From Caulobacter sp. (GTDB lineage Bacteria > Pseudomonadota > Alphaproteobacteria > Caulobacterales > Caulobacteraceae), in the NCBI GenBank assembly GCA_029866155.1, contig JARWZW010000031.1, positions 62,001 through 126,000 on the forward strand: a DNA stretch of 64,000 nt, written 5' to 3'. A program made the translations under genes and the position numbers. The notes below the pieces were generated by a model. It was not told where the DNA came from. It ran no database searches and was given only the letters and a program-made list of their open reading frames with translations. Below, in pieces: positions 41,935-61,748 of this stretch (position 1 is its first letter; the number at the start of each line of letters is the position of its first letter).

Positions 41935-42217
41935 CTGCCTCCTTGGGGCAGGGGGACCATCGCCAAGCGAGGGTGGATGGCGTCCCCATCGGTGGGTCGG
42001 CTGTGCGGACCGACCGGTGACATGGGATAATCACCCTCCCCGCTTCGAGCGCCCCGGAGAGTTCATGATCTGCCCTGCCAAAACCGGAAAAAGATCCGAG
42101 AAAACGCCGGACAAATCGGGACCGAAATCGGCCACCACCCGGACAACAACAGGACCGAAATCGGCGACCACCCGGACAACGGCAGGACCCCAAACGACCT
42201 GTCCAACAGGACGGACC
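41935..42217 (+). repeat. 283-bp structured dispersed repeat, copy A
   Basis: Aligns without gaps to the reverse complement of 59684-59966, with about 52 mismatches by hand count (about 82% identity). Order: hairpin CTGCCTC/GGGGCAG (41935-41951), a second region bounded by GGGGAC/GTCCCC, a 6-bp hairpin (41995-42000 with 42010-42015), the invariant GGGATAATCA, a purine-rich CGGAGA, then an ATG at 42065 opening a short frame with a 33-bp unit repeated twice (42119-42151, 42152-42184). It sits between the dehydrogenase terminator and the CoA-ligase gene. No transposase is nearby. Confidence 0.8.
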
Positions 42218-42430
42218 GCGCGTCAGCAGAGATGGCGACAGCGCTGCGCCAGCGCAGAATCATGTCAAAACTTGCATATATACAAAGACATATCAGAGTC
42301 GTCCGACCCATCGGCCGTCATTCGCGATGGGGCTGCCGCATGGTCCCGAATGCGATGTTCTGATTTTTCTTTGCCAATCGGAAACATCAGCCTGAACACA
42401 GCACGAAGAAATCTTGCGAAAGCGCGCTAA
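42065..42430 (+). other. Short open frame carried by repeat copy A (coding status unclear)
   Basis: Opens MICPAKTGKRSEKTPDKSG, then GPKSATTRTTT and a near repeat of it, then diverges from copy B after about codon 51. Frame is kept between the two copies, and CGGAGA precedes both ATGs. However, of the codons that differ in the shared part, about five changes are silent and a dozen alter the residue, so there is no sign of protein-level selection. More likely a structured DNA or RNA repeat with a fortuitous frame. Confidence 0.25.
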
Positions 42431-42533
42431 CTCCGTCCGTCGACTCGCCCATCGCCATCTCGACATCCCATCCCGGTTTTGGTCATCTGCGCCGGAACCG
42501 TCCATCAGAGACGCAGAACCTCGGGGAAGAACC
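42218..42533. promoter_or_regulatory. Upstream region of the CoA-ligase gene
   Basis: About 316 bp after repeat A and before the CoA-ligase ATG. The part at about 42262-42295 is AT-rich (CTTGCATATATACAAAG) and is the best place for a promoter. No confident operator is visible. The gene start is preceded by CGGGGAAG. Confidence 0.4.
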
Positions 42534-58554: not shown

Positions 58555-58907
58555 GCCCGGAAGTCTCCATCCAGGTCGCCGAGGATCGGGGTTCCGCCCT
58601 CATCCAGCGGGGCCGATCGGACCTTGATCGCCAGGGTTGGGTCGAGGGGGCCATACAGATGTGGAAACAGGTCGCCGCCGCGGGAGGGCTCCCAGCGCAG
58701 GGTCTCGCCCAGGGTCCCTGCATCGAAGGCGACCAGCATCACATCGGCCAGTCCGGAAAAATACCGCCGGGCGGTTTCCGGCGCCTGGGCTGCGGTAGAG
58801 AAATGGATGTAACCATCAGCCAGATCAACCGCCGATCCGGCGAATCGTCCCGCCTCGACCGCCGCCTGCCATTCCGACGCCGACAGCAGCTTGTAGACCA
58901 GGGTCAT
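58551..58907 (-). CDS. DUF952 family protein
   Basis: 118 residues. YKLLSASEWQAAVEAGRFAGSAVDLADGYIHFST is the DUF952 core with a conserved aspartate-glycine turn and YIHFS. The family's activity is unknown; the fold is ADP-ribosyltransferase-like. It is coupled to sixA upstream and pyrD downstream by overlapping start/stop codons, so sixA-DUF952-pyrD is one unit. Confidence 0.92.
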   Translation of the reverse strand: MTLVYKLLSASEWQAAVEAGRFAGSAVDLADGYIHFSTAAQAPETARRYFSGLADVMLVAFDAGTLGETLRWEPSRGGDLFPHLYGPLDPTLAIKVRSAPLDEGGTPILGDLDGDFRA

Positions 58908-59413
58908 TCCCCGGCTCCGCCGCCGTGGTCTGACGCATGGAACAGGCCGTCATAGGCTGGCCGGCCGGCGGCGTCGAAGGTGAAGGCGGCGACGCTGGCG
59001 GTCGAGAACTTGGCGCCGGCCCGGCTCATTTCCGTCGCCCCGGCCCCGCCCTGGCGCAGCAGGGCCAGGCTCAGGTCCTGGAGTCCCGGATTGTGGCCGA
59101 TGACCAGGACCGTATCCCTTGCCTCGCCAAGGGTTTCGGCCAGGGCCCAGATAACAGTATCCGAGGCCAGATAGAGGTCCCGGCGGACCTGAATCTCGGC
59201 GTCCGGAAAAGTGGGCGCCACGGCGGCCCAGGTGTCCTGAGTGCGGGCCGCGGCGCTGACCAGCACCAGATCCGGCCTGAACTCTTCGTCCTTCAGGACG
59301 CGGCCCATCAAGGCGGCGTCAAACCGTCCCCGTTCGGTCAGGCGCCGGTCAAAATCGCCGCCAGGTGCGCTGCGCTCGGCCTTGCCATGCCGAAAGAGGA
59401 TGAGCCGGTTCAT
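58904..59413 (-). CDS. sixA: SixA-like histidine phosphatase
   Basis: 169 residues from the ATG at 59413. LILFRHGKAE carries the RHG motif with the phospho-accepting histidine at about residue 9, and VIGHNPGLQ supplies the second conserved histidine. The length fits SixA, which dephosphorylates phosphohistidine in phosphotransferase proteins. The same frame stays open without a stop for another 141 codons upstream, into repeat copy B, so a longer chimeric start at 59836 cannot be excluded by sequence, but homology begins at 59413. Confidence 0.9.
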   Translation of the reverse strand: MNRLILFRHGKAERSAPGGDFDRRLTERGRFDAALMGRVLKDEEFRPDLVLVSAAARTQDTWAAVAPTFPDAEIQVRRDLYLASDTVIWALAETLGEARDTVLVIGHNPGLQDLSLALLRQGGAGATEMSRAGAKFSTASVAAFTFDAAGRPAYDGLFHASDHGGGAGE

Positions 59414-59683
59414 GGTTTTCGGTTTAGCGGCCGCAGGCGATTTTCTCCAGTGGGCAAGAGGGCCCGGAAAGTCGCCTGTCAACAACCGGCGCCTCGCGCA
59501 GTTTTCGGCAGCACCCGAGCACAAGAAAACGCCATCAGAAAATTCACGCGCCGGTCGGCGGGTGACGGACCGGCTGGACGGAACCGTGGGCTGGCCCTGG
59601 ACTCTGGCCAAGTCGTTGTATTCAAACGGTTTATCAGGCGATTCCGTGCTGGTTGAGAGTCCTGGCCCGCCCAACGGGCGCCG

Positions 59684-59966
59684 AGTCCGTCCCGTCGGAA
59701 GGGTCGTTTGCTGTCCTGTTCTTGTCCCGGTGGTCGCCGATTTCGGTCCTGTCGTTGTCCGGGTGGTCGCCGATTTCGGTCCCGATTTGTCCGGCGTTTT
59801 TCCGGATTTTTCGACGGTTCGGGCAGGGCGGGACATGGGTTCTCCGGGCGCATCGAAGCGGGGAGTGTGATTATCCCATTTTACCGGCTGGTCCGCGCAG
59901 CCAGCCCACCGGGGGGGACCCCGTCCACCATCGCTGCGCCAAGGTCCCGCTGCCCCGAAGGGGCAG
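59684..59966 (-). repeat. 283-bp structured dispersed repeat, copy B
   Basis: The reverse complement aligns end to end without gaps to 41935-42217 (copy A). Hairpins: CTGCCCC/GGGGCAG (59950-59966) and GGCTGG/CCAGCC (59901-59906 with 59886-59891, on the reverse strand). The latter differs from copy A at two stem positions on each side, and the pairing is kept. GGGATAATCA and CGGAGA before the ATG at 59836 are also kept, as is the 33-bp unit in two copies (59750-59782, 59717-59749). Confidence 0.8.
59717..59782 (-). repeat. 33-bp tandem repeat inside copy B
   Basis: Two adjacent 33-base units on the reverse strand, each starting GGACCGAAATCGGCGACCAC. The matching pair in copy A is at 42119-42184. 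The units encode GPKSATT-type repeats in the short frame. Only two copies are present, without spacers, so it is not a CRISPR array. Confidence 0.75.
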
Positions 59967-60066
59967 AATCTTCAGGGATGCTCCCCCAGGGCCGCGGACC
60001 GGGTTCGGGGGCGCTGTCAGGCGCGCAGCGGCTGACTAAGGGGAGTCAGCGGGCGGTTGCTGCCGG
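59947..60066 (+). repeat. Hairpin repeat family C, longer copy
   Basis: Shares CTGCCCC/GGGGCAG (59950-59966), GGATGCTC, CCCAGG, AGCGGCTGACTA and GGGCGGT with 61091-61180, in the same order. It has about 30 extra bases in the middle. GCTGACT (60031-60037) also pairs with AGTCAGC (60044-60050). It overlaps the end of repeat B, so two families share one hairpin here. Confidence 0.65.
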
Positions 60067-60201
60067 TGAACTCGCTGCGATCTCTCCTGATACAGACGGC
60101 GCTCCACAATGCCAGATGGGCGCAGTAAAACTTTTAGAACGGTGATTGCAGAATGCGCTTTGGTCTGGCAGCATACCTACTGACGGATGCTGGGACCGCC
60201 C

Positions 60202-60609
60202 ATGAGAGTTGCGACAGGGTCTGATCGACTGAGGTTCGCCGTGACAGGGCCCTTGATCCTGGTCCTCATCGCAACGGTCTGTCTGGGTTCAGCCTGTTCG
60301 GCGTCCTGCGAAAATGAGATTGTGGTCCGCTCCCCAAGTCCCGACGGGAAAAGATCCGCTGTGATCTTTTCCCGCAACCGCGGCGCGACGGTTGGATTTA
60401 ACTATCAGGTGTCCATCGTCGCCGGTGGCAAGGCCCCCACCGGCGTGGGCAACGTCTTGGTGGTTGATCAGGCGCCGGCCTATTCGGCTCGGTTCAGGCC
60501 GGTCTGGAATGGGAACAGTTCCGTCACGGTTCCGATCCCGCCGGGTGCGCGGGTGTTCACGAAGGTGAATAGCGTCGCGGGTGTGGGCGTAACGTTCCGG
60601 CAGTTTTAG
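60202..60609 (+). CDS. Small secreted or lipoprotein-like protein, DUF5412-like
   Basis: About 135 residues. A hydrophobic segment (about 14-32) ends in LGSAC and looks like a signal peptide or weak lipobox. The mature part CENEIVVRSPSPDGKRSAVIF resembles small proteins of the DUF5412 type, which begin with a similar statement of a denatured beta domain. GGGA lies seven bases before the ATG at 60202; an ATG at 60187 is also possible. It starts the accessory patch before yefM-yoeB. Function unknown. Confidence 0.65.
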   Translation: MRVATGSDRLRFAVTGPLILVLIATVCLGSACSASCENEIVVRSPSPDGKRSAVIFSRNRGATVGFNYQVSIVAGGKAPTGVGNVLVVDQAPAYSARFRPVWNGNSSVTVPIPPGARVFTKVNSVAGVGVTFRQF

Positions 60610-60642
60610 AAGACTGTGGTGCTTCACAGGGAGATTTAATCA

Positions 60643-60945
60643 ATGAACGATATTCGCTTCATTGGATTCATTTCATTGTACGTATGCGCATTTCTTTATC
60701 TGGTTCTTACCGTGCTTTTCACGATTTTATTAAAAAGAAGAATTTCAAATAAATCATTAATGCCGAATGTTATTTCCGCTAATCCGGTTGAGACAATAAG
60801 GTGGAGCGGATTCGTGTTTACAGATGCGAGGCATTATTCAGAGGGTTTCACGTTGATTGTTTTGTATATTGTTCGGGCGTTGTTGGTATTTTTCATGATC
60901 GGATTTCCAATAGCGATGTATTTAATAATCACCACACCCCGCTGA
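60643..60945 (+). CDS. Low-GC small membrane protein, probably acquired
   Basis: 100 residues with two membrane segments (about 5-30 and 70-95). The gene is strikingly AT-rich compared with everything around it (estimated near 40% GC), and it uses AT-ending codons (ATT, TTA, AAT). GGAGAT precedes the ATG. No family is recognised. Base composition indicates recent horizontal transfer. It starts 33 bp after the previous gene, and the two may share a transcript. Confidence 0.7.
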   Translation: MNDIRFIGFISLYVCAFLYLVLTVLFTILLKRRISNKSLMPNVISANPVETIRWSGFVFTDARHYSEGFTLIVLYIVRALLVFFMIGFPIAMYLIITTPR

Positions 60946-61242
60946 GCAATTTGAATTGATGCGACGGGTCGTCCCGGGCCTGCTGTCTGATCAAGCCAAC
61001 GCTGTGTGAAGCTCCACCACAACGACGCCAACGCATGTGAAGATCGACGTCTCCAACAGCGCCCAATCTCCACTGCCCCAGCCGGTGCGGACCCCTTCCC
61101 CGGAGGGGAAGGATCTCCGAGGATGCTCTCCCAGGCGCGAAGCGGCTGACTAGGGGGGCGTCAAAGGGCGGTCGTCGCCATTTCGAGTCGCAGCTGCCCG
61201 GCCAGCCTTGCCCCTGCGTACAAAAATACGTACAATCACCCA
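60946..61242. promoter_or_regulatory. Intergenic region before yefM-yoeB, with repeat C copy 2 and an operator
   Basis: 297 bp. 61091-61180 is the shorter copy of repeat family C, with a perfect 8-bp hairpin CCTTCCCC/GGGGAAGG (61094-61101, 61105-61112). The last bases hold a GTACA...GTACA pattern (61218-61234) that fits an operator for the antitoxin-toxin pair. Confidence 0.55.
61218..61234. promoter_or_regulatory. Probable YefM-YoeB operator
   Basis: Two GTACA boxes (61218-61222 and 61230-61234) lie 8 bp before the yefM ATG. YefM-YoeB operators in other bacteria are built from TGTACA-type boxes, so autoregulation by the complex is likely. The exact boundaries are a guess. Confidence 0.5.
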
Positions 61243-61497
61243 ATGCGCACCACCTCCTACAGCGAGCTTCGCAAGACCCTGGCCGCCACACTGGACCGGG
61301 TCCATGCAGACCATGAGCCGGTGGTGATCACCCGTGACAAGGGCCGCCCGGCGGCGGTGTTGATGTCGCTGGAGGATTTCGCCTCCTATGAAGAAACCCG
61401 CTACCTGCTGCGGAGTCCTGCCAATGCGGCGCGGCTGCTGGAGGCCGTCGAACAGATGGACCAGGGCGGAGGGCAGGCCCGGTCTCTCGCTGAATGA
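61243..61497 (+). CDS. yefM: YefM/Phd-type antitoxin
   Basis: 84 residues. MRTTSYSELRKTLAATLDRV is the Phd/YefM DNA-binding N-terminal region, and the tail (about 60-84) would cover the toxin active site. It binds its own promoter and neutralises YoeB. It overlaps the toxin gene by ATGA, the usual arrangement for tight control of the ratio. Confidence 0.95.
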   Translation: MRTTSYSELRKTLAATLDRVHADHEPVVITRDKGRPAAVLMSLEDFASYEETRYLLRSPANAARLLEAVEQMDQGGGQARSLAE

Positions 61498-61748
61498 AGC
61501 TGGTCTTTCACCAGCAGGCCTGGGAAGACTATCTCCATTGGCAGGCGCATGACCCCAAACTTCTGTTGCGCCTGAACGGCCTGATCAAGGAATGCAGCCG
61601 GACCCCCTTCACCGGAACCGGAAAGCCTGAACCCCTGCGCGGCCCGCTGGCTGGCTGGTGGTCGCGCCGCCTGACCCAGGAACATCGCCTGGTCTATCGC
61701 CCGTCCGAGGACGGCCTGCTGATCGCCCAGTGTCGCTATCACTATTGA
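61494..61748 (+). CDS. yoeB: YoeB-type mRNA interferase toxin
   Basis: 84 residues, the exact length of Escherichia coli YoeB. The catalytic residues expected by alignment are in place: Glu46 (GTGKPE), Arg65 (EHR) and the C-terminal His83-Tyr84 (RYHY). It cleaves mRNA at the ribosomal A site when the antitoxin is lost. It lies in an accessory patch and appears intact. Confidence 0.95.
   Translation: MKLVFHQQAWEDYLHWQAHDPKLLLRLNGLIKECSRTPFTGTGKPEPLRGPLAGWWSRRLTQEHRLVYRPSEDGLLIAQCRYHY

Follow-up and report, generated by a model that had tools for sequence, protein, structure and literature searches.

Introduction

The window analysed here, a stretch of 64,000 nucleotides from a Caulobacter genome, holds two copies of a repeat in opposite orientation, A (41935-42217, +) and B (59684-59966, -). 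The question that this locus raises is what kind of element the two copies belong to and what they could do for the genome that carries them. We have compared A and B with the rest of their own genome (G000, 3.5 Mb), with the close relative G068 and with further genomes of the genus and family. From these comparisons we propose that A and B may mark places in the chromosome at which a domesticated phage begins to fill its particles with host DNA.

Results

Extent and anatomy of the two copies

The alignment of A with B is free of indels over 283 bp, as a sequence-only reading had claimed, and 231/283 bases are identical (81.6%, earlier given as about 82%; BLAST E 6e-77). The GGGATAATCA box, the CGGAGA and the ATG lie in both copies where they had been placed, and the repeat exceeds chance, as the own genome holds 23 matches to A, mostly partial. 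The outline of the unit had to be redrawn. Its 283-bp ends are not natural, since the alignment with further copies runs about 200 bp past 42217, to about 42400. Likewise, the 5' ~53 bp are not an integral part of the unit, being a REP-like hairpin that is found alone elsewhere in the own genome. A single 283-bp family is not what the own genome holds either, because B is the sole other near-full-length match to A. Of the three hairpins described before, the first alone is predicted identically in A and B, and the fold z-scores of the whole elements are -2.0 and -1.4. The term short palindromic unit applies to element positions 1-53 alone, a separate repeat, and the loci L004, L008, L012, L014, L017, L018 and L022 match A in this 5' hairpin part only. 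As described before, the short frame is open in both copies. Several other copies are without a start codon or a long frame, however, and the frame therefore does not define the family.

The anatomy that results is well supported: the element consists of the REP-like hairpin, which is separate, a leader, an RBS with ATG, and direct repeats (Table 1). The leader follows the pattern TG[GC]GATAAT-N(4-8)-CCGCTTCGA, and the repeats of A reach a lag-33 autocorrelation of 0.71 against a shuffle 95% maximum of 0.47. The 121-aa frame of A is probably not its function. In B the frame (58904-59836, -, 310 aa) extends into a SixA-like gene, the conservation of which in relatives begins at the gene's own ATG at 59413; this continuity is probably a coincidence. 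A YefM-YoeB toxin-antitoxin pair lies upstream of B (window 61243-61748, +). In the G068 orthologue of B the alignment begins at 59916, and 59917-61152, including the hairpin, is missing there.

Table 1. Features of copies A and B in window coordinates
Feature	Position	Strand	Basis or remark
A, 5' REP-like hairpin, separate family also occurring alone	41935..41987	+	matches and fold
A, second GC-rich stretch, upstream of leader	41988..42021	+	sequence, fold
A, leader ATGGGATAATCACCCTCCCCGCTTCGA, extended -10-like TGGGATAAT plus CCGCTTCGA	42022..42048	+	0 mismatches to pattern
A, CGGAGAG and ATG (RBS-like, start-like)	42055..42067	+	
A, open frame, 121 aa	42065..42430	+	not maintained across family
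A, direct repeats, 33-bp unit, class I type	42101..42190	+	match to C10 TerS 3' end
A, 3' continuation of homology, end approximate	42218..42430	+	alignment with further copies
B, REP-like hairpin	59914..59966	-	absent from G068 orthologue of B
B, second GC-rich stretch	59880..59913	-	
B, leader ATGGGATAATCACACTCCCCGCTTCGA	59853..59879	-	leader pattern search
B, CGGAGA and ATG	59834..59846	-	
B, direct repeats, class I type	59711..59799	-	match to C10 TerS 3' end
B, 3' continuation, end approximate, reaching SixA-like gene starting at 59413	59480..59683	-	

Several candidate explanations were set aside at this level. A structured RNA was rejected on the weak fold z-scores of the whole elements, and a known RNA because no Rfam family (0) reaches its gathering score within the window. 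A conserved peptide was rejected as the frames are not kept across copies. A RAYT/REP origin as the driver was rejected because PF01797 (RAYT, Y1_Tnp) was not found in the own genome, in a profile search that gave 0/1 for this genome and matches in 5 of 14 controls.

Leader and repeats are shared with small-terminase genes

Searched with at most three mismatches, the 27-base leader pattern gives 15 sites in the own genome and its reversal 0. With at most two mismatches this form occurs, among 75 genomes of the genus, in G000 and G068 only. At L035 and L036, two of the 15, the leader is followed by a gene for the small subunit of terminase (TerS), identified by Terminase_2 (PF03592, E 1e-18) and by the PHROG terminase small subunit (E 1.7e-19). 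TerS is present in three copies in the own genome: C61 is intact, C50 has an internal TGA and C10 is truncated by a contig end, with its leader lying off the contig. No phage gene was conspicuous beside them when the ORF lists were inspected by eye. Contigs also end inside TerS genes in G068 (L165-L168), as for the own C10, which is expected if near-identical copies broke the assembly. The dN/dS of TerS is about 0.08-0.36 in six pairwise comparisons, in the range of genes under selection.

The 3' end of the C10 TerS gene is matched by A at 42107-42178 (87.5%, E 7.5e-18) and by B at 59711-59794 (91.7%, E 8.8e-30), and elsewhere in the window and in a further 20 kb of its contig the best repeat match, at equal search space, has an E of 0.002. 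Both ends of A and B, the leader and the 3' array, are shared with a larger coding unit of the own genome, the TerS gene. Since they combine a TerS-type leader with repeats as in the TerS 3' end, A and B can be read as TerS genes minus the body. Their repeats match the C10 TerS, not C61 or C50, while those of the class II copy C48 match the TerS of C61 (93%) and C50 (84%), not C10; these matches show that the repeat type follows a resident TerS. A list of own leader sites, compiled from several searches and possibly incomplete, comes to 25, with three sites before phage structural genes, two before TerS and 20 without TerS. TerS-type repeats lie within 320 bp of the leader in 16 of these 20 (E <= 2.8e-7), and no such repeats were found at the other four (C5a, C31b, C16, C54), which counts against a role of the sites in packaging. 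The alignments show A and B to be TerS-less members of a dispersed module that joins the TerS leader to the TerS 3' array, with no coding body.

The earlier suggestion of a non-autonomous element is borne out in so far as A and B keep both ends of the TerS gene without its body and the site of A is without the element in four relatives; terminal inverted repeats or a target-site duplication were not noticed by eye, at junctions that are inexact. A cis-regulatory module had been suggested as well, and what stands of it is that the box is half of a leader common to phage structural genes and TerS genes. Two further features of the module were seen. A GGGGACACCATACCGAACTCC-like box lies about 100 bp upstream of the leader in several class II elements (L029, L031, L038 and others). 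In G068 C271 (L171; 1042-1175, 1280-2313, 2441-3134) a 1-kb toxin-antitoxin-like stretch lies between two direct copies of the element start, and this stretch is also present upstream of the own C50 TerS.

The leader heads structural genes of a podovirus-like cluster

The looser motif GATAAT-N(4-12)-CCGCTTCGAT is present in 11 of 299 genomes of the family, eight of this genus with 1 to 25 sites each and three with single matches elsewhere, and the reversed control gave 0 in every row. Two of these three single matches, before an aspS-like gene (G210, G258; by eye), and occurrences within apparent coding sequence (L217, L227) were taken as chance. Among the genes 3' of the leader are the portal (PF12236, E 8e-109) and tail genes, together with TerS, a 59-aa gene and a Bbp19-like gene. 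Among 89 sequence-distinct leader sites, in counts that include orthologues and use rough regex tags, there are 21 TerS, 7 59-aa, 6 portal and 4 tail genes, 36 short elements and 15 untagged sites; L048 and L049 were tagged as TerS and are short elements, the untagged L093 is TerS, and the 'short' L226 is a degenerate TerS.

The own genome has a podovirus-like cluster with a major head protein (E 4.5e-63) and a TerL (E 1.6e-87). In both sequence and gene order the cluster, on C12, agrees with G049, G037 and G043; for G068 the match covers its TerL/tail part. The structural genes keep their orthologous order across species, as is expected of a gene transfer agent (GTA). In a set of 80 viral loci, each with a portal homologue, the leader is present in four of the nine with at least 74% identity (L279, L280, L283, L285), three of these nine starting inside the portal, and in 0 of the 71 with at most 62% identity. 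The motif searches show the leader to be common to the structural genes of a podovirus-like cluster that is conserved in the clade. It resembles an extended -10 element (TGnGATAAT). At L222:12720-14797 TerL lies next to a GcrA-like (PF07750) gene, at the place where TerS is expected; the pair recurs in L241 and L283, and a GcrA-like gene is also present in L238, L282 and L284.

Occupancy and conservation in relatives

The relatives were searched for copies and these are present in G068, so that the confinement to one genome that would speak against the repeat was not observed. A sits between an aldehyde dehydrogenase and an acyl-CoA ligase gene. This site is without the element, over the full intergenic stretch, in G037, G049, G031 and G043. 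It holds a REP pair, a DUF559-like gene (by eye) and a short element of its own in G052, and other genes in G033 and G053. A itself is present in G068, and its locus is occupied both in the own species and in G052.

In the comparison of A between the own genome and G068, conservation is higher in the leader (26/27) and the repeats (80/90) than in the spacer (38/51) and the 3' part (164/212). Over the hairpins (47/53, 31/35) and the stretch 42431-42532 (91/102) the repeats show no such advantage. In B the whole element (225/233) is better conserved than its 3' part (177/204), and conservation in the leader (25/27) does not exceed that in the spacer (50/53).

A second set of short elements was found in G052, which has 25 leader sites. 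Thirteen of these sites were listed, and ten regions from among them were read. Eight combine the leader with ACTTCAAA arrays and have no TerS; C6, also without TerS, has other repeats, which by eye resemble those in the C46 TerS gene, and C123 is a structural site. The locus of A holds a ninth ACTTCAAA copy, whose leader is weaker. The ACTTCAAA repeats are phased by 11 bp, with 90 of 101 pair distances at 0 mod 11 and the 11 off-phase pairs involving two stray CTTCA outside the array. The ACTTCAAA array and the tail of nine short elements recur at the 3' end of the C74 TerS gene; compared with 13 loci this end matches the nine ACTTCAAA loci and gave no match to the C6 element and three other TerS loci, one of them cut by a contig end. 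Within the 201-aa frame of the C74 TerS the ACTTCAAA unit is read in all three frames, a pattern that speaks for constraint at the level of DNA, not of peptide. These repeats are unrelated to those of the own genome and the design is alike; it may have arisen twice, or be common to both with the repeats replaced in concert.

The other relatives fit less well. G049 has four TerS matches, with no such array seen and no short element at its 10 motif sites listed, and the sole short element of G037 has ACTTACC/CTCACC-like repeats with a periodicity not above shuffles; both results count against packaging. A weaker leader-like site was seen by eye at one further locus of G049 (L359). The corresponding locus carries short elements in G068 (L169, on C1) and another gene in the own C54.

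Defence genes beside TerS

A PADLOC hit lies within 4 kb in nine of the 11 relative TerS loci read (L096-L109), which have no visible phage neighbours. These 11, four in G049, four in G037 and one each in G052, G033 and G043, are part of 18 TerS matches in the five relatives. The types at the nine loci are a type IIG RM, PDC-S37, Mokosh A+B, Olokun A+B, HNH, TIR-NLR, Vsr (two loci) and PD-Lambda-5. The tenth locus has a NACHT protein (Pfam only), and the eleventh a radical-SAM/C39-ABC pair, with PADLOC mad3 and mad8 matches that we read as generic ABC. As controls, 10 regions at preset positions were each represented by their two longest ORFs; 0/10 regions had a convincing defence match, with two weak hits in all (QueC, 2.5e-4; IetA, 1e-6). 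The contrast is indicative only, because picking the ORFs by eye at the TerS loci favours these loci. At the own TerS loci C61 and C10 two ORFs were tested and gave no PADLOC hit, and the own C50 locus has an HTH gene (Pfam) with a partner that is toxin-like by eye. At a zwf locus, named by eye (L102, L109), G037 and G043 both have TerS and the neighbours differ (HNH versus REase/Vsr).

Discussion

Literature searches found no description of such elements or of orphan or solitary TerS genes. Judged by its parts, the module is predicted to be a late promoter with a pac-like TerS-binding array of a domesticated, GTA-like phage, a function that we rate at even chances. TG[GC]GATAAT would serve as extended -10 element of a shared late promoter, and TerS made elsewhere would bind the array in trans as a pac-like packaging signal. 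The solitary TerS is presumably served by the resident domesticated cluster. On induction of this phage system, such sites would be transcribed and would become starting points for packaging the chromosome beside them. TerS genes, their neighbours, which in relatives are often defence genes, and TerS-less copies like A and B would thereby be favoured in transfer. A more far-reaching version, which we put forward tentatively and consider doubtful, is a selfish packaging drive: TerS paralogues with their own arrays would commandeer a vertically inherited podovirus-like GTA, array-flanking chromosome, often defence islands, would be packaged first, and A and B would be cheaters that keep the signal without the gene.

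By analogy, the nearest known layout is the pac of phage SPP1, where direct repeats span promoters and the start of the TerS gene, according to the available part of PMC4737164. In SPP1 and SF6 a promoter, the TerS gene start and direct repeats form the packaging start region (available parts of PMC4737164 and PMC9611059), and of such a region we see here direct repeats, a predicted promoter-like leader and an RBS/ATG, with repeats from the gene's 3' end. The pac-like arrays thus differ from SPP1/SF6 in deriving from the 3' end of TerS. In P22 pac lies inside the TerS gene. The pac of SPP1, SF6 and P22 sits in the phage's own genome, whereas here there are about 20 dispersed chromosomal copies without the TerS body.

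The system proposed here resembles RcGTA and CcGTA in that related bacteria have retained a set of phage-derived genes and that several loci come under common control; its particles are a prediction. The portal is podovirus-like (PF12236) and presumably unlike the RcGTA type. The CcGTA activator GafY acts at about 18 further promoters, as described in the available part of PMC11150451. GTAs are described as packaging host DNA without known start sites, and no evidence for discrete start sites had been presented (PMC6854486), which counts against the packaging reading. Phage-inducible chromosomal islands encode factors that redirect phage packaging through TerS. The likeness to them is the defence cargo alongside; the difference is that TerS is solitary here, and inspection of the ORF lists by eye revealed no recognisable set of island genes. 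REP/BIME elements with RAYT, and MITEs, are alike in that short non-coding copies keep the ends of a larger gene-bearing unit. However, the resident gene here encodes a terminase small subunit, PF01797 was not found in the genome, and inverted ends or a target duplication were not noticed by eye.

Three further results count against packaging. The own TerL adjoins a GcrA-like gene and not TerS. The main tail gene of the own draft genome is split into two frames (L223:15555-17816), and G068, G049 and G052 have it in one uninterrupted frame of 753-769 aa. For SF6, the isolated TerS DNA-binding domain has no preference for the pac repeats, as stated in the available part of PMC4737164.

The strongest alternative, which we regard as rather unlikely, is that A and B are relics: TerS genes copied around the genome would have lost their bodies through deletion, leaving inert and drifting remnants. 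Several copies indeed have no start codon or long frame, the C50 TerS has its internal TGA, and the locus of A is a site of REPs and variable genes. The conservation counts bear on both sides, for the repeats of A do no better than the neighbouring hairpins and the leader of B no better than its spacer, which also speaks against packaging, but leader and repeats are better conserved than the spacer and 3' part of copy A, and in B better than the 3' part. Moreover, short elements bounded by the same two modules in two lineages, and the exact 11-bp phasing in G052, are not expected of decay.

We consider it improbable that the copies are regulatory decoys or small RNAs, in which a late promoter would give short transcripts or the arrays would titrate TerS or another regulator. 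A leader that looks like a promoter precedes the copies found, partly by construction as these were found via the leader or via matches to A or C48, and eight G052 copies have the array without a TerS body; the RNA fold signals of A and B are weak, however, and the window is without an Rfam match. Phage-derived replication origins with run-off amplification, the arrays being initiator iterons, are a very remote prospect: the phased direct repeats are iteron-like, but arrays also lie inside TerS genes and an unsystematic look identified no linked initiator gene. Translation from the ATG into a family of small Thr/Pro-rich peptides is the least credible, as the RBS-like box, ATG and open frame of A, B and their G068 orthologues are set against the missing start in several copies, the 5/8 G052 ACTTCAAA copies without a start codon at most 110 nt from the leader, and repeats read in different frames in TerS and in short elements.

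If the packaging reading is true, several TerS paralogues with dispersed matching arrays would allow biased transfer of chosen regions of the chromosome, and such biased packaging would help explain the spread of defence islands. How TerS reads DNA is called unclear and controversial in the available part of a review (PMC9611059), and the elements described here would offer a natural set of TerS/array pairs for asking this question.
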